Shown here: positions 19,626 through 53,681 of the stretch, piece by piece
How the letters are laid out: every line of letters starts with the position of its first letter
Numbering within the stretch: position 1 is the stretch's first letter
Assembly: GCF_023955655.1 (NCBI RefSeq)
Contig: NZ_JAMXHT010000008.1
Span: 62,001 to 126,000 of the forward strand
Origin: Ralstonia soli
GTDB lineage: Bacteria > Pseudomonadota > Gammaproteobacteria > Burkholderiales > Burkholderiaceae
Length of the DNA stretch: 64,000 nucleotides
Direction: 5' to 3'
Position numbers and translations under genes: made by a program
Notes under the pieces: model-generated
What the model was told of the DNA's origin: nothing
Database searches by the model: none
The model's input: only the letters and a program-made list of their open reading frames with translations

Positions 19626-19928
19626 GGCTCTCGGAGCGCCGGCAGCGGGTCTTTCAGAGCCAACGCCGGGTCTCAGAGCGTCGCCTTCGGGTCTTTAAGC
19701 GCCAGCACTGGCACTCCACACACCCACCGGCGACGCTTTGAGAGCGAGCCGTGGGTCTTTAAGAGCCAGCGCCCGGGTCTTTGAGAGCCAGCGCCGATTC
19801 TCGGAGTGTCGGCATCGGCTCTGGGAGCGTCGACAGTGGGTCTCAGGAGAGCCAGCATCGGGTCTTTGGGACTCGACAGTGGCTCCCACGGTGCCAACAC
19901 CGGCACTCGCGAAGTCAGCGGCGGAGGC
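19626..19928. repeat. Array of about 14 degenerate 21-bp units (arm-loop-arm-hexamer)
   Basis: Fills the gap between the convergent iorAB and sbcB genes. Read on +, units such as GGGTCTTTAAGAGCCAGCGCC recur with a 21-22 bp period, with one 25/18-bp irregularity near 19710-19752. Each unit is a 6-base arm (GGGTCT or GGCTCT), about 3 loop bases, a partly complementary arm (AGAGCC or AGCGTC) and a variable hexamer (AGCGCC, GACAGT, AACACC). The last unit abuts the sbcB stop codon. It is not a CRISPR, since there are no unique spacers. Because 21 is a multiple of three, frames through it stay open without being genes. Confidence 0.85.
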
Positions 19929-21377
19929 TTAGCCCGGCACGATCTGCTGCGCGTAGTCGTACAGGTCTTGCAGGAGGCGCTGCGCGCGGGTGTCGCCTTT
20001 CTCCGTGGCTTCCGCGCCCAGTTGTTGGAGCCGCTCGCCGAAGGCTTCGAACGTCAGGTAACCGCCGTTGCCCTCGAACAGGCGCTCGGCGCGCAACTGC
20101 TCCCACTGCTCGTATTCCTCTTCGCTGAGCGTGTCGGGGAAGTTGCGTGCGCGGTAGTGGAACAGCAGTTCCGGCAGGCGCGCATCGGCGAAATCCGGAT
20201 GCAACTGCGCGAGCTGCTCGCCGCTGAGCGTGCGCAGTTCGTTCAGCGTGCGGCGGTCGTCGTTGCTGACGAAGCCGCCGTAGAGGTTCTGGTCGACATC
20301 GTCGATGGGCTCCAGCTCGCGGGCGTAGACCTGGCGCCAGGTTTCGCGCATATCGGGCGCGGCCTGGGCGATGGCGGCGTGGCGGTCAATGGTGGCGAAG
20401 TCGATGCCCCAGCGCTCGGCCTGCGCGGGCTGCAGCGTCTTCAGGTTGCCGATGACGATGGGCGACTTGTTGATGTGGATCGACTTGATCGGCAGGCGCG
20501 TGGTGCCCTCGGCCAGATCGGCAGTGCGCGTGAACATGCGCTCGCGGATCGTGGCGACATCCATGTCGAACAGCTCCGACGGATCGAACGCGAGGTCCCA
20601 CACGATCAGCTCGTTCTTGTTGGTCGGGTGCCCACCCAGCGGCCAGACGACAGCCATGCAGCCGCGCTCCACGCCGTACATGCCGGAGATGTGCAGCAGC
20701 GGGCGTGGCGCGTTGCCAATCTCGGCTACCACGCGGTCTTTCTTGCGCAGCGCCAGGCAGAAGTCGAACAGGCGCGGCTGTGCGTTGCGGATCAGGCGCG
20801 CCAGCGCGATCGTCGCGCGCACGTCGGATACCGCATCGTGCGCGGCTTCGTGCACCAGGCCGTTGGCCTTGGACAGATGCTCAAGCTTGAAGCTCGGCCT
20901 GCCGTCTTCGTGTTTCGGCCATTGGATGCCTTCGGGCCGCAGCGCCCACGTGGTGCGCACCACGTCGAGCAAATCCCACCGCCCGCATTCGTTCTGCCAC
21001 TCGCGGGCGTACGGGTCGATCAGGTTGCGCCAGAACAGGTGGCGCGTCACCTCGTCATCAAAGCGGATGGTGTTGTAGCCGACGCCGATGGTGCCGGGCG
21101 TGCCCAGCTCGCGCTCGATGGCCTGCGCAAAGCGGTATTCCGGGATGCCCTGCCTGGCGCACTGCTGCGGCGTGATACCGGTGATCAGGCACGACACCGG
21201 GTCGGGCAGCCAGTCGTTGGAGGGCTGGCAGAACAGCTCGACCGGCTCGCCGATCTCGTTGAGTTCGGCATCGGTGCGGATGCCCGCAAACTGGGCCGGG
21301 CGGTCACGGCGCGGCACGGCGCCGAAGGTTTCGTAGTCGTGCCAGAGGAAGGTCTGGCTAACGGGTGAAGGGGGCAA
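19929..21377 (-). CDS. sbcB: Exodeoxyribonuclease I
   Basis: Single-strand-specific 3'-5' DNA exonuclease of the DnaQ (DEDDh) superfamily, 482 aa, involved in recombination and mismatch repair. The first acidic pair lies in FLWHDYETFG (Asp14, Glu16) and the HxAxxD motif in HEAAHDAVSDVRAT near residue 185. The middle region with PIKSIHINKSP and the C-terminal exonuclease I domain match full-length ExoI. It converges with iorAB across the 21-bp array, which begins at its stop codon. Confidence 0.93.
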   Translation of the reverse strand: MPPSPVSQTFLWHDYETFGAVPRRDRPAQFAGIRTDAELNEIGEPVELFCQPSNDWLPDPVSCLITGITPQQCARQGIPEYRFAQAIERELGTPGTIGVGYNTIRFDDEVTRHLFWRNLIDPYAREWQNECGRWDLLDVVRTTWALRPEGIQWPKHEDGRPSFKLEHLSKANGLVHEAAHDAVSDVRATIALARLIRNAQPRLFDFCLALRKKDRVVAEIGNAPRPLLHISGMYGVERGCMAVVWPLGGHPTNKNELIVWDLAFDPSELFDMDVATIRERMFTRTADLAEGTTRLPIKSIHINKSPIVIGNLKTLQPAQAERWGIDFATIDRHAAIAQAAPDMRETWRQVYARELEPIDDVDQNLYGGFVSNDDRRTLNELRTLSGEQLAQLHPDFADARLPELLFHYRARNFPDTLSEEEYEQWEQLRAERLFEGNGGYLTFEAFGERLQQLGAEATEKGDTRAQRLLQDLYDYAQQIVPG

Positions 21378-21508
21378 GGCGGTGGCTCGCTGGAAAAGGC
21401 AAAAGATGCCGGCATGCTAACAGCCCAGCCGGCCGGGCCGCGCAAACCCGGCCTGGGGCGGGAGTAAGCTAGTGCGGTCGCCCACTTGCCCCACGCGCCC
21501 GAGCCACC

Positions 21509-22504
21509 ATGCGCATCCTCTTCTTCAGCAGCCACCGTTATGACGAAGACAGCTTCCGCGCCGCACAAGCGCGCGGTGGCCACAGCTTCGACCTTGTCTT
21601 CCAGCGCGCGCATCTCGACGCGCATACGGCACCGCTCGCCACCGGCTTCGAGGTGGTCTGCCCATTCGTGAACGACTCGCTCAGCGCCGAGGTGCTGGTC
21701 GCCCTGGCTGCCGGCGGCACGCGCCTGATCGCACTGCGCTCGGCGGGCTTCAACCATGTCGATCTGGCGGCGGCGCAGCGCCTGGGGCTGACGGTGGTGC
21801 GCGTGCCTGCCTATTCGCCGCATGCGGTGGCCGAGCACGCGGTCGGCATGATCCTCACGCTCAATCGTCGGCTGCACCGCGCCTGCAATCGCACGCGCGA
21901 GGGCGATTTCTCGCTGGATGGGCTGCTCGGTTTCGACCTGGCTGGCAAGACCGTCGGCGTGGTCGGCACCGGGCAGATCGGGCAGGTGTTCGCGCGCATC
22001 ATGGCGGGCTTCGGGTGCCAGGTGCTGGCGTTCGATCCATTCCCGCAGGCGGCGCTCACGGCGCTGGGCGTGCGTTATGTGCCGCTGCCGGACTTGCTGG
22101 CGCAGTCCGACATCGTCAGCCTGCACTGCCCGCTCAATGCCGACACACACCACCTGATCGACGCCAGCGCCATCGCCAGCATGAAGACCGGCGCCATGCT
22201 CATCAACACGAGCCGCGGCGGCCTGGTCGACAGCCCCGCGCTGATCGATGCACTCAAGACCGGCCAGCTCGGCCACCTCGGGCTGGATGTGTATGAAGAA
22301 GAAGCCGACCTCTTCTTCGAGGACCGCTCCGCCGATGTGCTGCAGGACGATGTGTTCGCGCGGCTGCTGACGTTTCCCAACGTGATCGTCACCGCGCATC
22401 AGGCGTTCTTTACGCGCGAGGCGCTGGCGGGCATTGCCGATACGACGCTCGCCAACGTTGCGGCATGGGCGGCGGGGGCGCCGATCAATGTCGTGAAACC
22501 TTAG
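21509..22504 (+). CDS. ldhA: D-lactate dehydrogenase / 2-hydroxyacid dehydrogenase
   Basis: NAD-dependent D-2-hydroxyacid dehydrogenase, 331 aa, most like fermentative D-lactate dehydrogenases (pyruvate to D-lactate). It has the nucleotide-binding GVVGTGQIGQVFA near residue 150 and the catalytic Arg in INTSRGGLVD, the Glu in LGLDVYEEEADLFFED and the His in VIVTAHQAF. The insert ADLFFEDRSADVLQDDVFARL is typical of the LdhA subgroup. It is divergent from sbcB with a 131-bp gap. Confidence 0.9.
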   Translation: MRILFFSSHRYDEDSFRAAQARGGHSFDLVFQRAHLDAHTAPLATGFEVVCPFVNDSLSAEVLVALAAGGTRLIALRSAGFNHVDLAAAQRLGLTVVRVPAYSPHAVAEHAVGMILTLNRRLHRACNRTREGDFSLDGLLGFDLAGKTVGVVGTGQIGQVFARIMAGFGCQVLAFDPFPQAALTALGVRYVPLPDLLAQSDIVSLHCPLNADTHHLIDASAIASMKTGAMLINTSRGGLVDSPALIDALKTGQLGHLGLDVYEEEADLFFEDRSADVLQDDVFARLLTFPNVIVTAHQAFFTREALAGIADTTLANVAAWAAGAPINVVKP

Positions 22505-22707
22505 CTGCGATGGCGGATCAGCGGCGTGCCTTCCCATCGACACAGACGGTGTTCGCGGCCCGGCGGTCTCGGACATGGCAGGATTCCTGCAATACCTAGG
22601 GGAAACCCGATGTCGCCAACGCGCAGCCGCACCGCATCGGGGCATCGACACCCGCTTGGCGCCGCTGCAGTGCAATTGGCGCCCCAGCCCCAAACGTTAG
22701 CGCCGCA

Positions 22708-23805
22708 ATGCCGACTTCCATCCGCCTCCATCGCCCCTTGAGACTCCCCGCCCCCTTTCTTTCCGCGCTCCGGCTGGTACGCGATCCGCACCGGCGCTAT
22801 CACCATGCGCGCGTCATCCATGCGACGCGGGTGAGCCTTGGCGTGCTGCTGTCGATCGTGGTGACGTCGGGGCTCGGTCTGCCGCACGGCGAATGGGCCA
22901 CCATCTCGTTGTTGATCGTCATTGCCGGGCTGCAACACCACGGCAACATCCGCAAGCGCGCGGCCGAGCGGGCCTGGGGCACGTTGATCGGCGCGCTGGC
23001 CGGTCTGTTGATCATCATTCAGCAGACCTGGCTCGGCCACCTGCCGCTCACCTACGCGCTGATGGCCTTGGCCTGCGGCGTCTGCGCCTACCACGCGATC
23101 GGCAAGGGGGGCTACATCGCCCTGCTGGCCGCCATTACGCTGGTCATCGTGGTGGGGCACGGCAACACCGATCTGCTCGAGGGTGCCTGGCGCACGCTCA
23201 ATGTCCTGATCGGGATTGCGATTGCCCTGCTGTTCTCCTTTGCGCTGCCGCTGTATGCCACTTTCTCGTGGCGCTACCGGATGGCCGATGCGTTGCGCGA
23301 ATGTGCCAAGGCCTATGCCGGTCTGCAGACGGCAGGCCGCACTGCCGATAGCGGGCGGCACGCACACCTCACGAAGCTCAACACGCTGCTGGTGCAATTG
23401 CGCTCGCTCATGCCGTCGGTCTCCAAGGAGATCGGTGTGCCGATCGATCGGCTCGACCGCATCCAGCGCAGTCTGCGCATCTGCATCAGCACGCTGGAGC
23501 TGCTCGATGCGGCACGCGCATCGTCGGGCGCTTCAGCCGAACACGCAGCGGCAGATGCAGTGTCAGCGGCGCAAGACCGGCGCTTGCGCGATACGCTCAT
23601 CGGCATGTCCCGCGCGCTCAGGTTCGGTACGGTGACACGCCTGGCGCACGACCGCGCAGCGGGCGCCCCTGTGGACAACTCGACGGCAACCAGCCGGCCC
23701 GCGCCGCTCTCTGCCGAAGGCGCACTGGCGCAGCGCTTTGCCAGCGAAGTCGAGCACCTGCGCGGCGAGCTCCTGGCCATCGCACCGCAGTGGAACATCG
23801 GCTGA
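22708..23805 (+). CDS. FUSC-family inner-membrane protein
   Basis: Integral membrane protein of 365 aa. The N-terminal half has about five or six membrane helices (VSLGVLLSIVVTSGLG, ATISLLIVIAGLQ, IALLAAITLVIVV, LIGIAIALLFSFALPL), followed by a cytoplasmic helical domain. The motif HHGNIRKRAAERAWGTLIGA matches the fusaric-acid-resistance/aromatic-acid-exporter (FUSC, YccS/AaeB) superfamily. No periplasmic adaptor gene is adjacent, so the export role and substrate are unknown. Confidence 0.8.
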   Translation: MPTSIRLHRPLRLPAPFLSALRLVRDPHRRYHHARVIHATRVSLGVLLSIVVTSGLGLPHGEWATISLLIVIAGLQHHGNIRKRAAERAWGTLIGALAGLLIIIQQTWLGHLPLTYALMALACGVCAYHAIGKGGYIALLAAITLVIVVGHGNTDLLEGAWRTLNVLIGIAIALLFSFALPLYATFSWRYRMADALRECAKAYAGLQTAGRTADSGRHAHLTKLNTLLVQLRSLMPSVSKEIGVPIDRLDRIQRSLRICISTLELLDAARASSGASAEHAAADAVSAAQDRRLRDTLIGMSRALRFGTVTRLAHDRAAGAPVDNSTATSRPAPLSAEGALAQRFASEVEHLRGELLAIAPQWNIG

Positions 23806-23864
23806 ACGCAGCGACGGCCCATCCGACAAGGCAAACAGACCGACGGGCAAAGCCCCGCCAGCGC

Positions 23865-24482
23865 TCAGGCGGCTTTCGGCTTGGACAGCTCGCTTTCGCC
23901 TTCCTTCACATAGATGGAGTTGCGCGGCTTAGCCAGCACGCGGCGCACCATCGGCTCGAAGAACGACAGCGGCAGGTTGTCGTAGTCCGCCATGAAGGCG
24001 GCGCCGTCGTATTTGGCGCAGAACTCGGCGGTGCGCTCGAACAGCTCGGGCTGGCTGCGGTACTGCTCACGCAGGTTGCGGTCCAGGCCCAGGTGGTGGA
24101 AGAAGTAGTAGCCCTGGAAGATGCCGTGCTTCTCGACCATCCACAGGTTCTCGGGGCTGACGAACGGCTTGAGGATGGCGGCGGCGATGTCCGGGTGGTT
24201 GAAGCTGCCGAGCGTATCGCCGATGTCGTGCAGCAGCGCGCAGACCACGTATTCCTCATCCCGGCCGTCGCGGTGCGCCAGCGTGGCGGTCTGCAGCGAG
24301 TGGGCGAGGCGGTCGATCGGGAAGCCGCCGCAGTCGCCGTCGAGCAGCTTCAGGTGCGCGAGCACGCGGTCGGGCAGCGCCCGGGCGAACGGCACGAATT
24401 CAGCCGAGATGGCGGCCCAGTCTTCGCGCGTGCCGCGCTCCATATGGGAAAACGTTGCGTGCGGGGCGGTGTGTTGCGTCAT
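23865..24482 (-). CDS. HD-domain protein (possible HD-type oxygenase)
   Basis: Cytoplasmic HD-domain protein, 205 aa. It shows H-S-L-Q-T-A then CALLHDIGDTLGSFNHPDI, a spacing closer to the diiron HD oxygenases (PhnZ/TmpB, myo-inositol oxygenase-like) than to nucleotide phosphohydrolases. A reversal to phosphohydrolase cannot be excluded. The start at 24482 has the strong ribosome binding site AAGGAG upstream; the longer frame reaches into the divergent regulator. It lies 130 bp from a Crp/Fnr gene on the other strand, a likely regulator. Confidence 0.7.
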   Translation of the reverse strand: MTQHTAPHATFSHMERGTREDWAAISAEFVPFARALPDRVLAHLKLLDGDCGGFPIDRLAHSLQTATLAHRDGRDEEYVVCALLHDIGDTLGSFNHPDIAAAILKPFVSPENLWMVEKHGIFQGYYFFHHLGLDRNLREQYRSQPELFERTAEFCAKYDGAAFMADYDNLPLSFFEPMVRRVLAKPRNSIYVKEGESELSKPKAA

Positions 24483-24612
24483 GAGGTGTCTCCTTCGTCG
24501 CCTGAATGGTCTCCAGGGTGTCATCGATGCCGCGTCATATGAACGTCCGGGCGCGCAGCTTGTGGGGCATTCTCTGCCCGGGCCTTGCGTGCAGACTGTC
24601 AAGCGTTTGACA

Positions 24613-25344
24613 ATGCCCCGTCCGCCTTCGCCGCATCCTGCTGCCATGTCTGCCGAAGCTTCCCGCGCCCACCCTGCCCCCACGCCCGCCCAGCTTGCGC
24701 AGGGCTGGCTGCGCGACGCCCCCGCCGACCTGCTGGCCGAGATTGCCCCCACCACACGCCTCGTCACCTACCCCGACGGCGAGTGCATCCACCTGCACGG
24801 TGACCCGGCGCAGGGCATGTTCCTGATCGTGCGGGGCCGGGTACGCATCAGCCGCACGACGGGTGCCGGCAGTGAACTCGTCTACAGCGTGCTGCGCGCG
24901 GGCGAATGGTTTGGCGAGATCGCACTCATCGACGGCGGCGGCCGCACGCACAGCGCCCATGCGCAGGGGTCGACCACGCTCATCCTGCTCGGCAGCGCAG
25001 CGTTCACGCGCATCGTCGACGGGTATCCGGCCAGCCGATGGGCGCTGATGCAGCAGCTCTGTGAGCGCATTCGCCTGATCTTCGACGAGGTGGAGCACGC
25101 CAGCGAGATGCCCGCCGAGGCCCGTCTCGCGCAACGCCTGCTGCTGCTCGCCCGCACGGGTGACGGTCACATGGTGGCCGCCAGCAACGAAGAGCTCGGC
25201 CGCATGCTGGCGCGCTCGCGGCAGACGATCTCCAAGTACCTGCAGGCGTGGCAGCGCGCGGGCTGGGTCCGGTGCCACTACCGGGGCGTCGAGATCGTCG
25301 ATGCAGCGGCTTTGCGCATGCTGATCGGCAACACCCCCTCCTGA
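24613..25344 (+). CDS. Crp/Fnr-family transcriptional regulator
   Basis: About 243 aa (or 232 aa if the ATG at 24646 is used; neither has a clear Shine-Dalgarno). The cyclic-nucleotide-binding-like domain contains GDPAQGMFLIVRGRVRISR and GEWFGEIALIDGG. A C-terminal Crp-type helix-turn-helix follows, with NEELGRMLARSRQTISKYLQAW as recognition region. No N-terminal cysteine cluster like that of Fnr is visible. It is divergent from the HD-domain gene and likely controls it; the effector is unknown. Confidence 0.88.
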   Translation: MPRPPSPHPAAMSAEASRAHPAPTPAQLAQGWLRDAPADLLAEIAPTTRLVTYPDGECIHLHGDPAQGMFLIVRGRVRISRTTGAGSELVYSVLRAGEWFGEIALIDGGGRTHSAHAQGSTTLILLGSAAFTRIVDGYPASRWALMQQLCERIRLIFDEVEHASEMPAEARLAQRLLLLARTGDGHMVAASNEELGRMLARSRQTISKYLQAWQRAGWVRCHYRGVEIVDAAALRMLIGNTPS

Positions 25345-25436
25345 CGGAGCCCCGCGGAGGGGGCACGCGCGCTCGGGGCATGCGCCAATAGAATGGTTTT
25401 TTGCTGCGCGCGGCGCTGGCCGCCCTCACCTGCCCC

Positions 25437-26687
25437 ATGACCCCCATGTTCTCGCCGGGCTCGCCCGAAGGCCGGCGCCTTGTGTTGCTGCTCGGCCTGG
25501 CCCAGATGGTCTCGTGGGGCACGCTGTACTTCACCTTCACCGTGTTTCTTGCGCCGATGCACGACGCGCTCGGCTGGACACGGCCGTTTCTGGCGGGCGG
25601 CTTTTCGCTGGGGCTCCTGGTGTGGGCGCTGTGCTCGTTCTGGGTCGGGCGCGCGCTGGATCGCTGGCCGGCGCGCCGTGTGATGGGCGCGGGCACCGTC
25701 CTGGCAGCAGGCAGCCTGCTGGCCTGGTCGCTCGTCTCCGGTGAGACGGCCTTCCTGCTGCTCTGGCTGCCGATGGGCGTGGCCATGGCGACCACGCTCT
25801 ACGACCCCGCCTTCGTCGTGCTGCGCCAGGCGTTTGGTGATGCCTACCAGCGGCCCATCATCGGCCTCACGCTGATCGCGGGGTTCTCCAGCACGCTGTG
25901 CATTCCGCTCGCGCAATGGGGCGTCGAGCACATCGGCTGGCGGCACACGCTGCAGGTGTTTGCGCTGGCGCATGTGCTGATCTGCCTGCCGATCCATGCG
26001 AGGCTGCGCGTGCGGCCACCCGCGCATGCGCCGGCTGCGGCGGTCGACCCGGCCGCACCGGTGCACGCATCGGCGTGGCGGATGGCACTGCGCATGCCGG
26101 TGTTCTGGGCGGTGGTGCTGGCCTTCGTGGCCGTCAGCCTGATCGCCACGGTGCTGGGCGCGCACCTGATTCCACTGTTGACGGAGAAAGGCGTGCCGAC
26201 CGGCCGGCAGTTGCTGATCGCCGCACTCATCGGCCCTGCGCAGGTGCTCGGCCGGCTGGCGATGATGCGCTCGCGCCCCGCGCACCCGGTACGCATCGCG
26301 CCGTGGACGTACCTCGCCATGGCAGCGGGGCTTGCCTTGCTCGCACTCTCCAGCGGCCCGCTGCTGCTGGTGTTCGCACTCGTGTACGGCGCGGCCAACG
26401 GCATCAACACGATGGTGCGAGCGATTGCCATGCCGGAGCTGGTCTCGCGCAGCCAGTACGCCACGCTCAACGGCCTGATGATGACGCCGGTGCTGCTTGC
26501 GCAGGCCAGCGCGCCCTGGCTCGGCGCCTTGTTGTGGCGGGCCACCGGCGGCTACGCGGCGGTCGAATGGGCGATGGTGGCGGCTGCGTTCATCGCGCTC
26601 GCAGCCTTCACCTATGCCTTGCGGCACGCGCAGGCACGCACCGTACCCACTGCTGCGGCACGTGGCGAGGTGACGCAATCGCCATAA
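25437..26687 (+). CDS. Major facilitator superfamily transporter
   Basis: Twelve-helix MFS permease of 416 aa. The first helix is LVLLLGLAQMVSWGTLYF, followed by the loop FWVGRALDRWPARRVMGAG (the MFS motif A position). A second bundle starts near residue 215 (MPVFWAVVLAFVAVSLIATVLG). The start ATG at 25437 is used rather than the TTG at 25401. Sequence type is like permeases of the aromatic-acid/oxalate or YbjJ-like groups; the substrate cannot be assigned. Confidence 0.85.
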   Translation: MTPMFSPGSPEGRRLVLLLGLAQMVSWGTLYFTFTVFLAPMHDALGWTRPFLAGGFSLGLLVWALCSFWVGRALDRWPARRVMGAGTVLAAGSLLAWSLVSGETAFLLLWLPMGVAMATTLYDPAFVVLRQAFGDAYQRPIIGLTLIAGFSSTLCIPLAQWGVEHIGWRHTLQVFALAHVLICLPIHARLRVRPPAHAPAAAVDPAAPVHASAWRMALRMPVFWAVVLAFVAVSLIATVLGAHLIPLLTEKGVPTGRQLLIAALIGPAQVLGRLAMMRSRPAHPVRIAPWTYLAMAAGLALLALSSGPLLLVFALVYGAANGINTMVRAIAMPELVSRSQYATLNGLMMTPVLLAQASAPWLGALLWRATGGYAAVEWAMVAAAFIALAAFTYALRHAQARTVPTAAARGEVTQSP

Positions 26688-26826
26688 TGTTTTCGGCACT
26701 TTGTACGCAGAAGATTGCTTTTAGGAACCTTTTCACGCGCAAATCTGTCTTGAATCCTGAGACGTGATGTTTCATTCTCGTAAGAGGCGGCCCGGTTTTT
26801 GCGAAACCGTCAACGGAGGAAGCGCC

Positions 26827-27681
26827 GTGTCACAGGCTCATCTGGAAACAGCATCTGCGAGTGAACGCATGCCGTGGTCGATCCAGGAGATCGCCTACGG
26901 CAGCATCGACACCGCCCGCGTGCGCGAGAACCGCACGCTGTTCTATCTGGTCGCCAGCGCCTCGTTCATCGAGAGCGGCTCGGATCTCTACGCCGGCAAT
27001 CTCGCCCAGTACTACGCCGACCGTCCTGAAACCGCACACTGGCTGATCGCCCACTGGGAGCGCGAAGAGCTCCAGCACGGCCGCGCGTTGCGCCGCTACG
27101 TCGAAACCGTGTGGCCCGAGTTCGATTGGGAACGCGGCTACGCCCGCTTCTTCGAGGAATACTCCGTCACGTGTTCGGTCGACCAGTTCGAGCCCACGCA
27201 GGCGCTGGAGATGGTCGCGCGCTGCGTGGTCGAAACCGGTACCGCCACGTTCTACCGCGCCATCGCCCAGGCTGCCGACGACGCCCGCGAGCCCGTGCTG
27301 CAAGACCTCGCCAGCCGCATCTCGGCCGACGAAGTGCGGCACTACAAACACTTCTATCGCTTCTTCAACGAATGCAACGCACACGAAGGCGTGGGCCGCG
27401 CACGCGTGCTCAAGGCGCTCGCCCTGCGCCTGCGCGAGATCAAGAACGAGGATTCGATGATCGCCCTGCGCAATGTGCTGCGCATCGAGCGCGATCAGAA
27501 AGACGTGCCCGAAGCCGACGTGCACGCACTCAACTCACAAGTAAGCGCGCTGGTGCGCGCCTACCTGCCGATCGATATGGCGGCCAAGATGCTGCTCAAG
27601 CCGCTGCGACTGCGCCCGGGATTCGAGCGTTCGATCCGGCCTCCGCTGGTGGCACTGGTGCGGCGGGTCATGCTGCACTAG
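26827..27681 (+). CDS. Ferritin-like (diiron) domain protein
   Basis: Soluble helical protein of 284 aa. Metal-ligand-like residues recur in the ferritin-like pattern: [43 protein letters not shown] and [12 protein letters not shown], which gives paired E and ExxH motifs as in diiron ferritin-like/acyl-desaturase-like proteins. The start is GTG at 26827 with GGAGGAA six bases upstream; an in-frame ATG at 26764 has no such site. Followed by a strong bidirectional terminator. Catalytic role unknown. Confidence 0.75.
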
Positions 27682-45501: not shown

Positions 45502-45511
45502 GGCTGGCACC

Positions 45512-45952: not shown

Positions 45953-45988
45953 TGGAGCGGATTATACGCACGCGACACCATCCGGCGG

Positions 45989-46246: not shown

Positions 46247-46263
46247 GGGCGATCCTCGCCCTT
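46245..46263 (+). terminator. Short hairpin after the XRE gene
   Basis: GAGGGCGA-TCC-TCGCCCTT, 6-8 bp stem beginning at the stop codon of the regulator, followed by a weak pyrimidine run. Weak intrinsic terminator candidate. Confidence 0.4.
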
Positions 46264-46376
46264 CTTGCGACGCAATGCAGTAGCTGCATTCCCACAGTAA
46301 TGCCGCATGACGCGAGACGCTGTCACGTCGTCCATGGATAGTCGGCGGCTTGCCGCCCTCCTCCCTCCTGCACTGA

Positions 46377-47594: not shown

Positions 47595-47622
47595 TGGGGG
47601 TATCTCTCCGTTGGTGGGCACT

Positions 47623-47644
47623 GCATACCCCCACAAATACCCCC
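47623..47644 (+). repeat. Right arm-type repeat
   Basis: GCATACCCCC then ACAAATACCCCC, the same two-block design as 40214-40238 in the same orientation, 29 bp upstream of the integrase start. Likely arm site that also overlaps the integrase promoter. Confidence 0.55.
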
Positions 47645-47690
47645 TTATCATTCCGGATGTCAACAGATCGGAATGGATGCCGCCGGCAAC

Positions 47691-47723
47691 AAAAAACCCC
47701 GCAGACCTTGAATCTACGGGGTT
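47691..47723 (-). terminator. Intrinsic terminator now serving tRNA-Ala
   Basis: On minus, ACCCCGTAGA (47713-47722) pairs with TCTGCGGGGT (47696-47705), loop of 7 bases, followed by T6. It lies 36 bp after the tRNA 3' end on the island side, so the island supplies it. Confidence 0.8.
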
Positions 47724-47758
47724 CTCTGGACTTCTTGAGACTGCTTCAGATTTGTTCT

Positions 47759-47834
<76 letters not shown>

Positions 47835-47870
47835 GTGAAAAATAAGTCTACCCGAAGTCCCGGTGCGCCT

Positions 47871-49598
47871 TCAATCGCGGGTCAACCCGCCCCCCAGCTC
47901 CATGCCGGGGTTGTCCGCCATGCCCACAATGCGCGGCGTATTCAGGGGCCGCGCCGTCACTTCGCGCTGGTCGCGCAGCCAGTCGGCCAGCACGTCCCAC
48001 ACGGGGCGGCCGCCGGCCTTGCGCGCTTCGGGCGACACGGCGGCCCAGCCGGCGACCTTGTAGCGGCGGTCGGCGTCGAGCGGCTTGTCGCCGAGGCGCA
48101 TGTCGGTAATGCGCTGGCCCATGGGCTTCAGCGGGTCGATGGTGTAGCGCAGGCCGCCGGTGCGCACCATGTCGCCGCCCTGCTGGTAGTACGGGTCGGG
48201 GTTGAACAGGTTGTCGGCCACGTCTTCGAGCACGGTCTTGATGGTGGCGCCGGTCATCTCGGTGAGCGTGGTAGCCGGGTACGTGATGGCGGTCTGGGCC
48301 ATCAGCGCTTCCATGGTGACGGCCTCGCCGGGCAGCAGCGTGGTGCCCCAGCGGAAGCCGGGCGACAAGGCGATCTCCGCGCCCTGTGCCTGCATCAAGC
48401 CATCGACGATGAGCTGATCGAACGTGCCGTTGAAGTTGCCGCGCCGGTACAGCAGGCCGCGGTTCGTGGCGAGCGTCTCGCCGAGCTTGTCTTTGTACGG
48501 CGCGCGCACGCGCTCGATGAGCGCCATCATCGTCGGATCAGGCGGCAGCAGATCGGCGAAGACGGGCAACAACGTGTAGCGGATGTCGCGCACGGTGCCG
48601 CCACGCACGTCCAGATCGAGCACGCCGACAAACTTGCCATTGGCACCCGCGTTGGTGACCAGCGTCACGCCGCCGGGGTTGCTGACCTTGATCGGCGCCG
48701 GCACCGCATCGTGCGTGTGGCCGCCGAGGATGGCATCCAACCCGCGCACGCGCGAGGCGAGTTTCAGGTCGACATCCATGCCGTTGTGCGACAGCAGGAC
48801 GACCACCTTGGCGCCCTTGCCGCGCGCCTCGTCGATCATCTTCTGCAGCCGTTCTTCCTGGATGCCGAAGGTCCAGTCGGGCGTGAAATCCGCCGGATGC
48901 GCGACGGGCGTGTAGGGGAACGCCTGGCCGATGATGGCCACTGGCACGCCGTTCAGCTCACGCAGCACGTAAGGATCAAACACCGGGTCGCCAAAGTCGG
49001 CGGTCTGGATGTTCTGCGCGACGAAGGCGACCTTGTTCTTGAAATCGTGGTCGACCACGTGGCGCACGCGGTCGGCGCCGTAGGTCATTTCCCAGTGCGG
49101 GGTCATGACATCGACGCCGAGCGTGAGGGCCGCGTCGACCATGTCCTGCCCGTTGGTCCACAGCGCAGTGGCCGAGCCCTGCCACGTATCGCCACCGTCG
49201 AGCAGCAATGCATTGGGCCGCGTGGCGCGCAGGTGCTTGATGAGCGTCGCCAGATGCGCAAAGCCGCCCATGCGGCCATAGCGGCGCGCGGCTTCGGTGA
49301 AATCGAGCGAGGTGAAGGCGTGCGCCGTGCGCGAACCCGGTGCGATGCCATAGCGCTTGAGCAATGCATTGCCCACCAGATGCGGCGGCTGCCCCGCCCA
49401 CTGCCCCACGCCCAGGTTGACGCTGGGTTCGCGGTATTCGATGGGCAGCAACTGCGCGTGGCAGTCGGTGAAGTGCAGTAGGTGGACGTTGCCGAAGTGC
49501 GGCACGTTGTAGACCACCGTGTCTGCGTGGGCGTCGGTCAGGCGCAGGCCGGCGGCTGCGGCAATCGCCAGGGCTTGGACGAATTCGCGGCGGTTCAT
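47871..49598 (-). CDS. soxB: Sulfur-oxidation thiosulfohydrolase SoxB
   Basis: Periplasmic dimanganese hydrolase, 575 aa, that releases sulfate from SoxY-bound sulfane-sulfonate in the Sox cycle. It has a twin-Arg-like start (MNRREFVQALAIAAAAGLRL), metal ligands in LLHFTDCHAQLLP, LLLDGGDTWQGS, VVVLLSHNGMDVDL and LGGHTHDAVP, and the C-terminal 5'-nucleotidase-like domain. Its start overlaps the soxW stop (ATGA at 49595-49598). Last gene of the sox operon. Confidence 0.96.
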   Translation of the reverse strand: MNRREFVQALAIAAAAGLRLTDAHADTVVYNVPHFGNVHLLHFTDCHAQLLPIEYREPSVNLGVGQWAGQPPHLVGNALLKRYGIAPGSRTAHAFTSLDFTEAARRYGRMGGFAHLATLIKHLRATRPNALLLDGGDTWQGSATALWTNGQDMVDAALTLGVDVMTPHWEMTYGADRVRHVVDHDFKNKVAFVAQNIQTADFGDPVFDPYVLRELNGVPVAIIGQAFPYTPVAHPADFTPDWTFGIQEERLQKMIDEARGKGAKVVVLLSHNGMDVDLKLASRVRGLDAILGGHTHDAVPAPIKVSNPGGVTLVTNAGANGKFVGVLDLDVRGGTVRDIRYTLLPVFADLLPPDPTMMALIERVRAPYKDKLGETLATNRGLLYRRGNFNGTFDQLIVDGLMQAQGAEIALSPGFRWGTTLLPGEAVTMEALMAQTAITYPATTLTEMTGATIKTVLEDVADNLFNPDPYYQQGGDMVRTGGLRYTIDPLKPMGQRITDMRLGDKPLDADRRYKVAGWAAVSPEARKAGGRPVWDVLADWLRDQREVTARPLNTPRIVGMADNPGMELGGGLTRD

Positions 49599-50104
49599 GG
49601 TTTGGGGCTGTGGGCCGGGTGGGCGTACTGGGCCAGGTCAGCTACGTCGTCTTCGAGCATCTCGCCGACTTCCTTGCGCACGACGCGGCCGTTGGCGTCG
49701 AGCACAAGCAGCTCCGGCAGACCCTTGCGCGGGCCGGTGGCGGCGCACAGCGCGTCGGATTCCATCGTCACCGGGAAGGTGAAGCCGCGCTTGGCGACGT
49801 AGTCCTTTGCGAGCTGCGGGTTGGCGTCGATGCTGATGGTGAGAATGCGCAGGTCCTTGCCGCGCGTGGCGTCGTGGAGCTTTTGCAGACGCGGGTTCTG
49901 CAGCGCGCAGAACGGGCACCACGATGCCCATGTCTCGATGATGACCGGATGCCCGCGCCATGCACTGCCGGGCATCCGCGTACCGTCAAGCAATTGCACA
50001 TCGGGCATCGTCACCACATCGCCCACTTCGACGGCCTGTGCAGCGCCACCGGCAAACACCATCGCCGCTGCTGCCCACATCAAGAACCGTCGAATCGCGT
50101 GCAT
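49595..50104 (-). CDS. soxW: Periplasmic thioredoxin SoxW
   Basis: 169 aa, signal peptide (MHAIRRFLMWAAAAMVFAGGAAQA) followed by a TlpA-like thioredoxin fold with active site WASWCPFCALQ. In Sox clusters SoxW keeps the SoxYZ cysteine carrier reduced and active. Placed between soxX and soxB, 4-bp spacing to soxX and overlap with soxB. Confidence 0.88.
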   Translation of the reverse strand: MHAIRRFLMWAAAAMVFAGGAAQAVEVGDVVTMPDVQLLDGTRMPGSAWRGHPVIIETWASWCPFCALQNPRLQKLHDATRGKDLRILTISIDANPQLAKDYVAKRGFTFPVTMESDALCAATGPRKGLPELLVLDANGRVVRKEVGEMLEDDVADLAQYAHPAHSPKP

Positions 50105-50108
50105 GGCG

Positions 50109-50765
50109 TTACTGATTGACTGGAGATGCCGGGTCCAGCAACAGCGCCATCACATCACGGATCTGCTGCTCGGTCAGGATGCCCTTGTGCCCGAAGCGCG
50201 GCATGTTGGAGCACGCGGCGTATGCGTTGGAGTTGTAGATCTTGCCCCACGTGTAGCGCAGGATCGCCTCCGAGTTACCACGCAGCTTGCCGTACTGGTA
50301 CAGCGACGGGCCGATGGTGCCGTACGACACCTCGTCTTTCGACAGGCGGTGGCACGCATAGCAATTGGCGCCGTTCACACCACCGGCCGGGTCGGAGAAC
50401 TGCATGCCGCGGCCGCTCTGCGCGGTCTTCTCGCCTTCCTTCCAGTCGCCCAGCCACTTGCCGTCGGCGGGGTAATGGATGGTCTTCATCTGCGCGTCTT
50501 CCAGCGTCTTGGCGACGGCGGCGGGCACGGCATTGCGGTCGGCGTACTGGCTGCAGGTCTTCTGCACGTCGTCGCGCTCGGTCACGCCTTCCACGGTGGC
50601 CGGGCCCTTGGAGACAAAGCTCTCGTGGATCACCTTGGCGAGCGCGGCGTCGGCTTTCGCATCGGGCTTGGGCGCGGTGATGGTCTTGGCTGCGTCCGCA
50701 GCGTGTGCGGTGCCGGCAGCCAGCATCAAAGCGATGAGGGTTGTTCGAAGCATGGCGGGCCTCAT
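50109..50765 (-). CDS. soxX: Sulfur-oxidation cytochrome c SoxX
   Basis: 218 aa, monohaem partner of SoxA. Signal peptide (MLRTTLIALMLAAGTAHA), haem motif CYACH with axial Met in CSNMPRFG, and an N-terminal extension of about 90 residues seen in the longer SoxX type. Start ATG 50765 overlaps the soxA stop; the internal ATG 50753 is also possible. SoxAX joins thiosulfate to the SoxY cysteine. Confidence 0.9.
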   Translation of the reverse strand: MRPAMLRTTLIALMLAAGTAHAADAAKTITAPKPDAKADAALAKVIHESFVSKGPATVEGVTERDDVQKTCSQYADRNAVPAAVAKTLEDAQMKTIHYPADGKWLGDWKEGEKTAQSGRGMQFSDPAGGVNGANCYACHRLSKDEVSYGTIGPSLYQYGKLRGNSEAILRYTWGKIYNSNAYAACSNMPRFGHKGILTEQQIRDVMALLLDPASPVNQ

Positions 50766-51592
50766 CGTTTGATCGACGGCGCGTCCATCTTGCCGCCGTT
50801 GGCGTTGCGGGCGAGAAACAGCTCCAGCGCGGTGATCACCTCGCTGCCGTAGAGCGGCTCCGGAAAGCGCTGCTGGCGCAGGCAGTCGTACAGGCGGTGC
50901 TGCATCGTGCGCACCTCGCCTTGCGAGACGCGGTAGCCCGGCCATGTGGAATACGCAAAGCGCGCACCGTCAGCCGTCAGCAGATCGGGCAGTTCCTGCA
51001 GGCGGATGCGCAAACCCGGCTGCGCGTGGCACGTGGCGCAGGCAAAGTCATACGCGCCGCCACGGTAGAAGAACATGCGGCGGCCGAGTTCGTACGTGCG
51101 CTTTTCTTCCGGATGCGCCAGTGGAATATCGATGGCCGCGCCGCGCGATTCCGAGGTGATGTATGCCATCAACCGTTCGATCTGCGACGGCTTGCCCGGC
51201 GACGAGAACGGCGTGGCCGAAGCCTCTTCCTTCGTCAGCCCCTGCAGCGTCATGCGGCAGTACATGAGGCGCTGTTCGGCGTCCATCACACGGCCGGTGT
51301 CCTTGAAGAAGCGCGGCAGCTTGGCGTACGCGCCCTTCACCACGCCGGGGCCCAGGCCCAGGTCGCACGCTTCGAGCGAGGTCTGCTTCGGGCCGGCGGG
51401 CTTCTTCCAGAGTTCTTCGCCGGCGGCTTCCCAGAGCTCGGCCGGATTGCCGTCGGCCAGCATTTCGCGGTACTGCGCGATGCCGGCAGCGGTGCTGTCT
51501 TTTTGATCTTGCGCGCGGGCCGTCATGTTGACGCCCGCTGCAAGTACCACCGCTGCTGCGGTGATCGATGCGATCGATGTGAGTCGTTTCAC
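50762..51592 (-). CDS. soxA: Sulfur-oxidation cytochrome c SoxA
   Basis: 276 aa from GTG at 51592, supported by GGAGGGG and the signal peptide MKRLTSIASITAAAVVLAAG. A single CxxCH haem site (FACATCHAQPG) and the conserved active-site Cys in LYDCLRQQRFPEP identify a monohaem-type SoxA. SoxAX oxidises thiosulfate and links it to SoxY. Downstream soxX overlaps by four bases. Confidence 0.92.
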   Translation of the reverse strand: MKRLTSIASITAAAVVLAAGVNMTARAQDQKDSTAAGIAQYREMLADGNPAELWEAAGEELWKKPAGPKQTSLEACDLGLGPGVVKGAYAKLPRFFKDTGRVMDAEQRLMYCRMTLQGLTKEEASATPFSSPGKPSQIERLMAYITSESRGAAIDIPLAHPEEKRTYELGRRMFFYRGGAYDFACATCHAQPGLRIRLQELPDLLTADGARFAYSTWPGYRVSQGEVRTMQHRLYDCLRQQRFPEPLYGSEVITALELFLARNANGGKMDAPSIKR

Positions 51593-51647
51593 GGTCCCCT
51601 CCGTGGGTCGCCTACAGGCCATGGAGCACCTACAGTCCATGGCACGC

Positions 51648-52103
51648 CTACGGCTTGAGATAGGCGAAACCTTCTTCCTGCTGCAAGCGGGTGACTTCCA
51701 CCACGCCGGCGGGCACCACCTTGGCTTCGAGCAGCAGCTTGTCTTCCGGCACCTTGAAGGCCATCAGCGAGTTGTGGCACACGCGAAACTCCACGCCCAT
51801 GCTCGCCAGTGCAGCCACTGGCGCATCAAACGTGCGGCCCTGCGCATCCTTGGCCCCTTCGACGAGGAAGTCGATGCCGTGCCCGAACGCCACCACCACG
51901 ATCTTCGTGCCGGGCGCGCCGTTCAGGTGGTTGCGCAGGTTGCCGATCGCGCGCGTGGCCTGGTCGATGCCTTCACTGAGTTGGTAGACCACCTTGTAGC
52001 GGGCACCCGCACCACCAGAGCGGGGCGCGTTCTGCGCGGCGGCCTTGCCCGCCACGCCCAGTGCCGCCAGCGCGGCGGTCACACGAAAGAAGCTGCGTCG
52101 CAT
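51648..52103 (-). CDS. DsrE-family periplasmic protein
   Basis: 151 aa, signal peptide (MRRSFFRVTAALAALGVAGKAAA) and a DsrE/DsrF-like fold (YKVVYQLSEGIDQATRAI, KIVVVAFGHGIDFLVEG, VEFRVCHNSLMAF). A single Cys in the FRVCHNSL segment could carry sulfur. Such genes recur inside sox clusters; the exact role in persulfide handling is not established. Confidence 0.8.
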   Translation of the reverse strand: MRRSFFRVTAALAALGVAGKAAAQNAPRSGGAGARYKVVYQLSEGIDQATRAIGNLRNHLNGAPGTKIVVVAFGHGIDFLVEGAKDAQGRTFDAPVAALASMGVEFRVCHNSLMAFKVPEDKLLLEAKVVPAGVVEVTRLQQEEGFAYLKP

Positions 52104-52118
52104 GTCGGCCTCCGGGGC

Positions 52119-52430
52119 TTATTGAATTGCCGTTTCGTCGGTGCGCTTGTCACCGTGATTGTCGACCCAGGTGACCGTCACCTTGTCGCCCTTGGCGCCG
52201 CCCTTGAACTTGAAGTTGAGGAACGGATCCTTCGACACGGCCGTGCCGAACTGCGCGTCGAGCACCGTCTTGCCGTTGTGCAGCACCGTCACGTTGGTGA
52301 TGTGCCAAGCCGGCACGAGCTTGCCGGACGCGTCTTTGCGCTGGCCGGTTTCCATATCGTGCTTCATCAGGATCTTCACGTCGGTCGTGCCGCCGTTTTC
52401 CATTGCGCGAATGCGCATCGGGTCTGCCAT
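52119..52430 (-). CDS. soxZ: Sulfur carrier subunit SoxZ
   Basis: 103 aa, Ig-like scaffold of the SoxYZ carrier. Family segments MADPMRIRAMENGGTTDVKI, LVPAWHITNV and FSRDPFLNFKF-like SKDPFLNFKF are visible. No signal peptide, consistent with co-export with SoxY by Tat. Immediately downstream of soxY. Confidence 0.93.
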   Translation of the reverse strand: MADPMRIRAMENGGTTDVKILMKHDMETGQRKDASGKLVPAWHITNVTVLHNGKTVLDAQFGTAVSKDPFLNFKFKGGAKGDKVTVTWVDNHGDKRTDETAIQ

Positions 52431-52448
52431 GGTGTGCTCCTCTGTTCC

Positions 52449-52919
52449 TTAACCGCCGCAGCCACCGAGGGTGACCTTCACTTCCTTGCTTGCCAGCACC
52501 CACTTGCCGCCCGCGCGCACGGCTGCGTAGACCACCGAGGTCTCGCCCATCTTCACGCGCGTGCTCACGAACGGCTCGGTACTGGCGGGAATGCCAAACG
52601 TGGCCGCCAGCGTGTTCGGGTTCTTCTCCACCAGGATGGCGATCATGTCGGTGCCCGGCAGCGTGCTGGTCACCACCAGCGGCACCACGGCGCCGTTCTC
52701 GGCGATGTCCGGCGCGGTCAGGTGCACGCCCGAGCCACCCTTATCGACAGCGCCACCACCCAGTTGCTTGAGCACGTCGTTCACGCCCTTGATGCTGAAG
52801 GCGGTCTTGTTCCACTCGGCGGCCTGGGCGGGCGTGGCAATGCCGGCGGACACCAGCAGCGCCATCATGGCGCCGGCGCGCAGCACGTCGCGGCGGGAGA
52901 GGTTCACGGAATCCGTCAT
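52449..52919 (-). CDS. soxY: Sulfur carrier protein SoxY
   Basis: 156 aa. A twin-arginine signal peptide (LSRRDVLRAGAMMALLVSAG) leads to the Ig-like SoxY domain, ending in the conserved mobile arm VTLGGCGG whose Cys holds the sulfur intermediates. Start at 52919 has GAGGA upstream. It follows a small cytochrome c gene by 8 bp and precedes soxZ. Confidence 0.94.
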   Translation of the reverse strand: MTDSVNLSRRDVLRAGAMMALLVSAGIATPAQAAEWNKTAFSIKGVNDVLKQLGGGAVDKGGSGVHLTAPDIAENGAVVPLVVTSTLPGTDMIAILVEKNPNTLAATFGIPASTEPFVSTRVKMGETSVVYAAVRAGGKWVLASKEVKVTLGGCGG

Positions 52920-52927
52920 CGCATTCC

Positions 52928-53275
52928 TCACTTGGCCGGGGCGCCCGCGAGCACCCACTCGATCACGGTCTTCAGATCGGCGTCGCTGACCTTCGGGTTG
53001 GCCGGCATCGGGATCTGGCCCCAGTTGCCCATGCCGCCTTCGCGCACTTTCTTGATGAGCCTGGCCTCGGCGCCCGCATCGCCCTTGTACTTGGCGGCAA
53101 CGTCCTTGTAGGCCGGGCCGACGAGCTTGCGATCCACGGCGTGGCAGCCCATGCAGGCGTTCTGGTTGGCGAGGGATTGCGCGCGGGCGGCATCAACGGC
53201 GGCCTGTGCGGGCAAGGCGGACAGCGCCAGGCCGGCCAGCACCGCCGAAGCGGCGAGCGTGGGGGCGAACTTCAT
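52928..53275 (-). CDS. Small cytochrome c (c551/c552 type)
   Basis: 115 aa, signal peptide MKFAPTLAASAVLAGLALSA, haem motif CMGCHAVD and axial Met in WGQIPMPANPKVS. A class I cytochrome c probably carrying electrons from SoxAX to the terminal oxidase. GGAGA precedes the start. It heads the sox operon, and a GC-rich hairpin lies just upstream of its start. Confidence 0.9.
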   Translation of the reverse strand: MKFAPTLAASAVLAGLALSALPAQAAVDAARAQSLANQNACMGCHAVDRKLVGPAYKDVAAKYKGDAGAEARLIKKVREGGMGNWGQIPMPANPKVSDADLKTVIEWVLAGAPAK

Positions 53276-53294
53276 GTGGTCTCCGGAAAATGGG

Positions 53295-53320
53295 GCGGCC
53301 CGCGTGTCGTTGCGGGCCGC
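53295..53320. promoter_or_regulatory. GC-rich palindrome in the sox operon leader
   Basis: GCGGCCCGC (53295-53303) and GCGGGCCGC (53312-53320), perfect 9-bp arms around GTGTCGTT, 19 bp upstream of the first sox-cluster start codon. Candidate operator or mRNA hairpin. Between it and the repeat array (53321-53401) nothing else was found. Confidence 0.45.
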
Positions 53321-53401
53321 TTGCGCCGATATTGTGCCCCAAGCGCTTCGCCGAGGCTCGCCTGCGCGGCTCGGACAGCCACGCGCGGCGCAAAAAGCCC
53401 C

Positions 53402-53681
53402 GGCGTTGAGGCAAAAAGCATCAACGTCGAGGCTTGGACAGTCGTCGCTGCCTAAAAAAGCAGCATCATTGCTGAAAAAAGCAGCAGCGTTGAGGCCCGA
53501 GAGCCTCATCGTCGAGTCTTTTCGCTCCGGCGTTGATGCTTTTTTCAGCAGTGATGCCCCTATTTGGGGCATGCGAGAACCTGCGAGGGTCGACGTTGCG
53601 TGTTTTAGGTTCAACGCCGGGGGTTTTAGGTTCGACGGTGGACCTTAGAGGGCCATCGCTGGACCTTTGAGGTCCAACGCT
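53402..53681. repeat. Array of 14 units phased at 21 bp
   Basis: Hexamers of the form RNCGNY (GGCGTT, AACGTC, GACGTT, AACGCC, ATCGCT, AACGCT) occur at 53402, 53423, 53441, 53465, 53486, 53508, 53529, 53550, 53571, 53592, 53613, 53634, 53655 and 53676, spacing 21 bp with three local shifts. The stretch between hexamers is often self-complementary, for example GGACCT-TTG-AGGTCC and GAGGC-CCGAGA-GCCTC. It starts 11 bp from the stop of the EamA gene. Same design and orientation as the array at 19626-19928, but with different sequence. Confidence 0.85.

Follow-up and report, generated by a model that had tools for sequence, protein, structure and literature searches.

What are the tandem repeats that lie at the ends of two minus-strand genes of Ralstonia soli, and what might they do there? 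The first-pass annotation of the 64,000-nucleotide stretch analysed here (hereafter referred to as the window) described two 21-bp arrays placed directly past the stop codons, with units ordered as hexamer, arm, loop and arm and read in the same orientation. It proposed that they belong to a dispersed family that may control mRNA decay, transcription termination or translation coupling.

Two 21-bp arrays past minus-strand stop codons

The window contains the following features around the arrays.

15978..19574, plus strand: gene with POR and DUF6537 domains (Pfam PF01558, PF20169), convergent with sbcB
19626..19923, no strand assigned: array 1, about 15 imperfect 21/22-bp pseudo-palindromic units (PWM chain, lag-21 identity and purine/pyrimidine heptad detector)
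19929..21377, minus strand: sbcB, with exonuclease domains (PF08411, PF00929); stop codon and array 1 about 6 bp apart
52928..53275, minus strand: cytochrome c gene (PF00034), downstream of array 2 on the same strand
53366..53692, no strand assigned: array 2, some 14 units of 21/22 bp whose arms vary (PWM chain, lag-21 identity)
53693..54685, minus strand: EamA transporter gene (PF00892); stop codon abuts array 2

Both arrays are borne out by lag-21 identity (0.44 in array 1 and 0.48 in array 2, the best among lags 5–69 in each) and by the PWM chain, whose limits (19626–19944 and 53366–53681) agree with those annotated earlier; the right edge of array 1 at about 19923 is a judgement, and the chain overruns the stop by a few bases. 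They are the two intergenic lag-21 matches of the window, a third match lying inside a gene. The heptad detector picked up array 1, and array 2 fell below its threshold. The described position past minus-strand stops also holds, with the stop codons at 19929 and 53693 within about 11 bp of the arrays. From the EamA stop, array 2 extends toward the region upstream of the next gene. Array 1 fills a convergent gap, 51 bases of which separate it from the end of the plus-strand POR/DUF6537 gene at 19574, a setting absent from the first-pass annotation. The name sbcB is taken from that annotation, the Pfam search showing exonuclease domains, and the start of the POR/DUF6537 gene comes from our own gene caller.

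Several known classes were rejected. A CRISPR array is contradicted by the absence of spacers and by neighbouring units that are about 54% identical, and a coding repeat by stops that interrupt all six frames in both window arrays, leaving open stretches of 93 and 96 codons at most. By eye, the conserved unit positions follow no third-base pattern. The sole match in the window at the Rfam gathering score is a tRNA, and, to our knowledge, Fis, Lrp and similar motifs do not fit the arrays.

A dispersed family with a purine/pyrimidine skeleton

All 20 arrays examined in this genome are intergenic according to our gene caller: 7 lie in convergent gaps, 12 in codirectional gaps and 1 in a divergent gap. 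In 8 of the 20, an array edge comes to about 16 bp or less from a stop codon; no edge comes as close as 16 bp to a start codon. The placement statistics are modest (divergent gaps, p = 0.017 by base-pair share and 0.092 by gap count; convergent gaps, p = 0.035). With 19 of the 20 arrays outside divergent gaps and 8 edges near stops, the proposed family at gene 3′ ends is supported: the arrays are dispersed in Ralstonia and lie mostly just past gene ends. At least 17 arrays of the shared-sequence type were found by model R1 (150 of 2,671 candidates scored), and arrays of any type extrapolate to about 43 for the genome (95% interval, 9–126), in which case several hundred units would be expected. 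No arrays were found in 545 kb from 76 loci of other genera, and in five genomes of five other genera (321 kb) the one match is a plain heptamer repeat, without a 21-bp array.

The claim of a shared orientation is weak. The plus strand gives the higher score in both window arrays (209 versus 172 in array 1; 89 versus 57 in array 2), but the unit is close to a palindrome and scores on either strand, and array 2 doubles back on itself. Among the codirectional arrays whose strand scores differ by at least 20, seven of eight point against their own gene (p = 0.07; 4 of the 12 were left out as unclear), and with the three copies of one composite counted once, five of six do so (p = 0.22), a weak tendency. 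Tabulated by distance and orientation to stop codons, the 20 arrays support gene-end placement, at modest p values, and show a weak orientation bias.

Although unit sequences vary between loci and species, a purine/pyrimidine skeleton with period 7 within the 21 bp is strong in 42 of 46 arrays, the power at period 7 averaging 13–24 by group versus 1.0 in block-shuffled controls. At the level of bases, the period is 21 and units are about 55% identical. Helical phasing at 10.5 bp was rejected as the main code, as period 7 is stronger; 22-bp steps interrupt strict helical phasing. The substitution rate between orthologous arrays varies by unit position from 0.04 to 0.28 in a test that follows unit paths, which replaced a fixed-phase test (p = 0.53, 0.11 and 0.002) blurred by the 22-bp steps. 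Transitions exceed transversions at purine/pyrimidine-conserved positions (89:40 versus 61:48 elsewhere, p = 0.044). The unequal rates and the kept skeleton suggest constraint, although homogenisation could imitate it.

REP and BIME elements share a sequence at high copy number, usually over 100. Excerpts of the papers describing them report imperfect palindromes outside genes, clustered in tandem and in some cases lying shortly after stop codons, for which functions in gyrase binding, termination and the control of translation have been proposed (PMC2817692, PMC12306157, PMC3733652, PMC6379681), and state that each REP palindrome carries GTAG (or CGTC) as a tag at one of its ends (PMC3733652, PMC2817692). 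The Ralstonia arrays resemble them in being extragenic and near 3′ ends, but consist of 21-bp head-to-tail units, about 10–28 per array, with a base sequence that is not conserved between arrays, and probably occupy tens, not hundreds, of loci. GTAG is not enriched in the 20 arrays (0.78 per kb versus 1.65 in array-free gaps), and CGTC occurs at 6.13 versus 5.63 per kb, both words being counted anywhere and not at unit ends. With heptamer repeats and variable-number tandem repeats (VNTRs), the arrays share period 7, in purine/pyrimidine space; simple heptamer repeats, such as the 7-bp repeat between genes of a relative (L314), differ from the base period of 21 and the roughly 55% identity found here. 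Excerpts on R. solanacearum typing loci give VNTR units of 5–18 bp, in schemes that require about 80% or more within-array identity (PMC4860299, PMC7723262). The wording '21 bp' or 'palindrom' was not found in the Ralstonia VNTR papers examined, and the family is undescribed in the open-access titles and abstract openings listed.

Terminators at the array sites and turnover of the arrays

At the sbcB site, 13 of 15 relatives have an intrinsic terminator instead of an array, consisting of an A-run, a hairpin and a T-run and detected on both strands in 13 of 13; at the EamA site, 13 of 14 evaluable relatives have one. In this genome, neither terminator was found at that position past the sbcB or EamA stop. 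The EamA-site terminator is probably ancestral, because it is also present in the outlying genome G012, whereas the polarity at sbcB is uncertain, because G012 and G013 lack the terminator there and the branch of this genome is weakly supported (0.285). Terminator replacement was rejected as a general rule: at the four other array loci with orthologue data, no strong terminator was found in array-free relatives, so only two of six loci had one to replace. At one of these four, the flanking genes converge in 13 of 15 relatives, overlapping or lying at most 16 bp apart with nothing between them, and at another the relatives have a plain spacer of about 170 bp. The earlier idea of a role in termination gains support at the two window loci but not at the other four tested.

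Arrays and terminators also coexist. Good terminators share a gap with an array at L153, L284 and L287, and a looser scan gives matches in many array gaps. In convergent gaps, terminator matches on both strands occur in 1 of 7 with an array versus 21 of 46 without (p = 0.22), and on either strand in 6 of 7 versus 26 of 46; in codirectional gaps of at least 60 bp, the counts are 8 of 11 versus 34 of 125 (p = 0.004), the array gaps being far longer. The consensus terminator scan found none in array 1, and three matches in the 2 kb around array 2 (1.6 expected), two of them inside the array.

53397..53412, minus strand: terminator-like stem, then TTTTTGCGCC, inside array 2 on the EamA sense strand
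53461..53474, minus strand: second terminator-like stem, then CTTTTTTAGG, inside array 2

One T-run hairpin of array 2, lying 258 nt beyond the EamA stop, has a folding energy of −22.4 kcal/mol. The arrays resemble bidirectional intrinsic terminators in position and, for array 2, in holding T-run hairpins, but they span about 300 bp and most units lack a regular hairpin and T-run.

We tentatively favour, as plausible though short of probable, a reading in which fast-turning Ralstonia repeats, settled in the zone where transcription ends, act as bidirectional barriers, either alongside an intrinsic terminator or instead of one. This is supported by the gene-end location, the absence here of terminators present in most relatives at both window sites, the near strand symmetry and the kept purine/pyrimidine skeleton, and weakened by the uncertain sbcB polarity, the T-run hairpins of array 2 and terminator matches that are no rarer in array gaps. 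The arrays would stop or insulate transcription coming from either side, RNA polymerase being halted or slowed there through the repeated dyads on DNA (by a bound protein, a topoisomerase or DNA shape) rather than by one conserved RNA hairpin, and array 2 could additionally terminate via its own T-run hairpins or long fold-back. Such barriers would be BIME-like, with the REP tag missing, and would represent a mobile repeat replacing a terminator, traceable across sister species at defined loci. A more specific version is a long shot: a genome-wide class of barriers coded by RRRNYYY-like heptads, three to each 21 bp and legible from both strands, moving from locus to locus as ready-made arrays and able to replace intrinsic terminators, perhaps through a Ralstonia-specific shape-reading DNA-binding protein. 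A recognition code keeping purine/pyrimidine class without base identity would be unusual.

A serious rival, although on balance an unlikely one, is that copying and recombination spread the arrays as neutral or selfish repeats, which accumulate at gene ends simply because insertions are tolerated there, with no promoter or coding sequence to disrupt. A site that holds an array in one species may lack it in a related one, arrays often gain or lose 21 or 42 bp, a whole number of units, L160 contains a run of five identical units, and three arrays lie in copies of one composite repeat. DNA similar to array 1 occurs in only 1 of 15 relatives. Neighbouring units of array 1 are 54% identical, while sbcB fourfold sites are 74–78% identical to relatives; as its units are more diverged than its probable age at the site would allow, array 1 probably arrived pre-formed or evolves fast. 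Against neutrality stand the signs of constraint described above, and the loss of a terminator at two sites without effect would be surprising. Neutral arrays would still mark fast repeat turnover, and would mean that a terminator can go missing without a conventional substitute.

DNA topology and RNA structure

It is rather improbable that the arrays are BIME-2-like topological elements, in which phased dyads would serve as binding sites for gyrase or a nucleoid protein and take up positive supercoils at transcription ends or points of convergence. The position at 3′ ends and in convergent gaps would fit, as would the strong/weak-base power at 10.5 bp (5.1 in arrays versus 1.1 in array-free gaps), which recalls the phased 10-bp G/C variation of the E. 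coli gyrase motif in excerpts of its description (PMC6379681). However, the strongest period of the skeleton is 7, not 10.5, and part of the G/C phasing would be expected of any 21-bp repeat.

We give a similarly small chance to RNA 3′-UTR structures, in which unit hairpins, single or paired over long range, would terminate transcription or block 3′ exonucleases. On either strand, the predicted folds of both window arrays are more stable than those of dinucleotide shuffles (z = −5.7 to −9.1), and L284 contains palindromes with altered arms. In 202 units from relatives, several arm pairs covary (z up to 4.5), but this shuffle mixed arrays with orthologues; shuffling within 47 arrays leaves a small excess (z = 2.6). 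By contrast, no inner-arm covariation was found in 206 distinct units of 14 arrays in this genome, where a per-unit hairpin was rejected, and 12 of 16 arrays fail to beat column-shuffled unit controls by 2 s.d. on both strands (16 of 17 arrays were scored, L284 having no path; L137, L138 and L141 were not given). On the sense strand, G–U pairs are not in excess over A–C (237 versus 213 in 10 arrays here; 57 versus 58 in 3 arrays of relatives). In the alignment of the L142 locus, double-sided changes occur in 7 of 161 pairs and the covariation term is unfavourable (+0.75). A conserved fold across species was rejected; compensated changes exceed slid partners in a tally that was not counted, because the fold had been optimised on the same alignment. 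Of the annotated hexamer–arm–loop–arm hairpin, the covariation in relatives and the small within-array excess speak for the unit, and the data from this genome speak against it, so that support for unit-by-unit hairpins appears weak and mixed.

Array 2 contains, in addition, a long imperfect inverted repeat, one arm of which carries AAAAA units and the other TTTTT units.

53393..53489, plus strand: left arm, 73 of 96 aligned positions matching the right arm
53531..53627, minus strand: right arm, self-match at the same span

As a general feature of the arrays, such a fold-back was rejected, since the block shuffle that suggested it lost phase. Judged by the column shuffle, the long fold-back is convincing in array 2 (z = −4.0 and −3.9) and suggestive in L148, L153 and L287, which exceed the controls by more than 2 s.d. 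on both strands.

Array units and limits

Two intergenic stretches of the window stand out by their identity at a lag of 21 bp. Fourteen arrays of this genome supplied 230 units for the iterative training of a position matrix, whose unit consensus is G R S N C T Y N R A G M G Y C R G C R B Y. The unit is 21 bp long, with 22-bp steps now and then, and is nearly palindromic around position 8 and again between positions 18 and 19. Chaining of the matrix matches returned the same limits as the first-pass annotation for both arrays:

19626–19944, array 1, between minus-strand sbcB (stop at 19929) and a convergent gene, the end of which is at 19574
53366–53681, array 2, between minus-strand EamA (stop at 53693) and a cytochrome c gene whose upstream side faces the array

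Separately, a tandem repeat of 9/18 bp (GGCCGCTTG-like) lies at 56252–56310, inside or close to a gene.

Given where the arrays lie, the absence of the relatives' terminators at both window loci, the strand symmetry and the preserved skeleton, we tentatively read the arrays as a possible bidirectional 3′-end barrier that would act at the DNA level.

Distribution and turnover

The genome (5.73 Mb, 31 contigs) has four closest relatives by sbcB in the named collection, three Ralstonia and 'Burkholderiaceae bacterium 26', at 92–95% identity, the next being at 80%. R1, a sequence-only model built from three units, identified at least 17 arrays in this genome among the matches listed (150 of 2,671 candidates scored) and matched 13 of 16 Ralstonia genomes, this one counted. 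With stricter filters, 12 of 299 family genomes matched, all Ralstonia; because R1 is tied to sequence, the lack of a match elsewhere speaks only to similar units. A generic lag-21 scan of 400 kb, sampled from this genome at a chosen spacing, found two strict intergenic arrays (loci L271 and L287), a looser setting added a third (L284), and a detector of period-7 purine/pyrimidine patterns, which scores 12 hits over the 17 array loci and misses array 2, returned these three and no others. Extrapolation from the 400-kb scan gives about 43 arrays in this genome (95% 9–126), without correction for sensitivity. Generic scans of 545 kb from 76 loci outside Ralstonia found no 21-bp arrays. Five genomes, each from a different other genus, were sampled over 321 kb in all, with a simple heptamer repeat as the sole detector match; in two relatives, at 200 kb apiece, G011 had one simple heptamer repeat and G009 one array. 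The simple heptamer repeats, possible ancestors of the 21-bp arrays, are the two detector matches other than 21-bp arrays, and lie in largely non-coding DNA:

L314, 7307–7626 (relative G011), simple heptamer repeat
L311, 4970–5281 (another genus), simple heptamer repeat

Adjacent units are 54% identical in each array, with best matches at 74% (array 1) and 72% (array 2), and the fourfold sites in sbcB and EamA show 74–80% identity between this genome and the compared relatives. Lower divergence would be expected of arrays born on the spot by duplication since the split, so the arrays probably arrived ready-made or change rapidly. By DNA search, similarity elsewhere was only partial: array 1 matched 2 of 16 genomes, and short pieces of array 2 matched 11 of 16, this genome included in both counts. 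Of 40 internal pairwise gaps exceeding 3 bp between orthologous FUSC-locus arrays, 24 have lengths divisible by 21, and all five gaps in two smaller orthologue alignments are whole units, in tallies that count non-independent species pairs; other gaps measure 13, 86, 120, 128 and 254 bp, or 1–3 bp. Five identical 21-bp units in series at L160 (5246–5350, G011) are a recent tandem expansion. Array-2-like units (GGACCTTTGAGGTCC type) recur downstream of the FUSC-like gene in relative G004 (L219), which suggests that a unit type may pass between loci and between species. Neutral mobile repeats, a serious rival that we hold only somewhat less likely than a barrier, would account equally well for the turnover and the pre-diverged arrays. 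Ralstonia VNTRs are treated in three papers (PMC4860299, PMC12366337, PMC7723262).

Gene context and terminators

The 3′ sides of six genes were inspected in 15 relatives. Downstream of sbcB, 13 of 15 carry a hairpin between A- and T-runs, and the gap to the convergent gene spans 68–88 bp (12 relatives measured); the hairpin is absent from G012 and G013, and G012 has another terminator-like match. Downstream of EamA, the scan found a terminator in 13 of 14 evaluable relatives, a set outside which the unreadable G013 site falls; in G002 the tail behind the hairpin is poor. For the EamA gene of G012 (L184), a genome search reported a single in-frame TGA. This genome is without the relatives' sbcB and EamA terminators at the matching positions. 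Array 1 has a hairpin with an imperfect T-run (−18.3 kcal/mol) on the strand opposite to sbcB, and array 2 has several such hairpins on the EamA sense strand, the best (−22.4 kcal/mol) 258 nt past the stop.

An sbcB protein tree that includes four outgroups places G012 and G013 outside and joins this genome to G011, G004 and G010 (support 0.285); a six-gene nucleotide tree is midpoint-rooted only. Because the outlying G012 also has the EamA terminator, the terminator there probably predates the array; which came first is less certain at sbcB.

The FUSC-like 739-aa gene is followed by a clear array in 9 of 15 relatives and a weak one in G004; among the five array-free relatives, the gap in G006 is 13 bp long and lacks a sense terminator as well. 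At L143, the convergent genes overlap or lie ≤16 bp apart in 13 of 15, and G012 and G004 have arrays built of different units. Array-free relatives at these two loci show a few weak terminator matches. At L142, lag-21 arrays occur in 11 of 15, several of them built from other unit sequences, and the rest have gaps of about 60 bp (three) or 153 bp (one). At L145, all 15 have an array-free spacer of 167–181 bp, with a sense terminator in none of the 14 scanned. Thus, an array here stands against a terminator in most relatives at the two window loci, with no replacement at the other four.

For array gaps in general, a looser scan than the consensus scan gave terminator matches on both strands for 1 of 7 convergent gaps with an array versus 21 of 46 without (p = 0.22); with a match on either strand counted, the figures are 6 of 7 and 26 of 46 (p = 0.22). 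Among codirectional gaps of ≥60 bp, 8 of 11 with an array versus 34 of 125 without had matches (p = 0.004), an excess that speaks against simple substitution, in a comparison where array gaps are much longer (median 553 versus 66.5 bp across codirectional gaps) and L148 is excluded because its gap exceeds the 1,200-bp limit.

By the calls of a simple gene caller used alone, 20 arrays of this genome occupy 7 convergent, 12 codirectional and 1 divergent gaps; three of them (L137, L138 and L141) belong to copies of a single composite repeat. One or fewer divergent arrays has p = 0.017 by base-pair shares and 0.092 by gap number, the sole case (L149) hanging on a weakly scored gene, and seven or more convergent arrays has p = 0.035 against base-pair shares. 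A stop codon lies within about 16 bp of the array edge in 8 of 20, and a start codon within 16 bp in none, the nearest being at 20 bp (L151). A self-complementary element of about 210–240 bp, with many copies in this genome, adjoins arrays at L137, L138, L141, L148 and L151, flanking both sides at the first three:

L137, 5357–5560 and 6199–6467, element copies
L270, 12738–12983, element copy
L271, 13428–13694 and 14944–15228, element copies
L138, L141, L148 and L151, further copies

A BIME-like topological role would fit this placement and a 10.5-bp base-composition signal; we regard it as improbable. REP/BIME elements (PMC3733652, PMC12306157, PMC2817692, PMC6379681) carry a tag, and on that tag the arrays fall outside the group.

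Purine/pyrimidine skeleton and folding

Period-7 purine/pyrimidine power has a median of 18.6 across 46 arrays (above 5 in 42, lowest 0.0), against a mean of 1.0 in block-shuffled controls, and the autocorrelation of 47 arrays peaks every 7 bp as far as 42, most strongly at 21 and 42. Unit types are GGNNCT in most arrays of this genome, GTTC.GAAC in G012 and G004, and GAGC-A5-GCTC in L284. Substitution rates vary by unit position in the FUSC-locus arrays (chi-square 56.7, p = 2e-5, optimistic because species pairs overlap). Transitions outnumber transversions by 89:40 at class-conserved positions versus 61:48 elsewhere (p = 0.044). The ratio is 162:315 at fourfold sites of the neighbouring gene, where base composition differs, and 74:74 and 33:28 over all positions of the L142 and L143 alignments.

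Both window arrays fold well relative to dinucleotide shuffles on both strands, largely because the consensus is palindromic. With column-shuffled units as the control, array 2 is exceptional (z −4.0 and −3.9), array 1 reaches −1.7 on both strands, L148, L153 and L287 reach −2.1 to −3.0 on both, and the other 11 of 16 arrays fall short of −2. Inner arm pairs of this genome's units show no covariation. In 202 units from relatives, pairs 4–12 and 5–11 reach z 4.5 and four others 2.5–3.0 when shuffled across arrays; shuffling within 47 arrays gives 2,908 observed against 2,846 expected (z 2.6), with signs mixed among arrays. Sense-strand G-U pairs are overall no commoner than A-C, and arrays differ widely. 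RNA structures fit array 2 but the array family less well, and seem a poor prospect as the general explanation. Within array 2, an inverted repeat matches at 73 of 96 positions.
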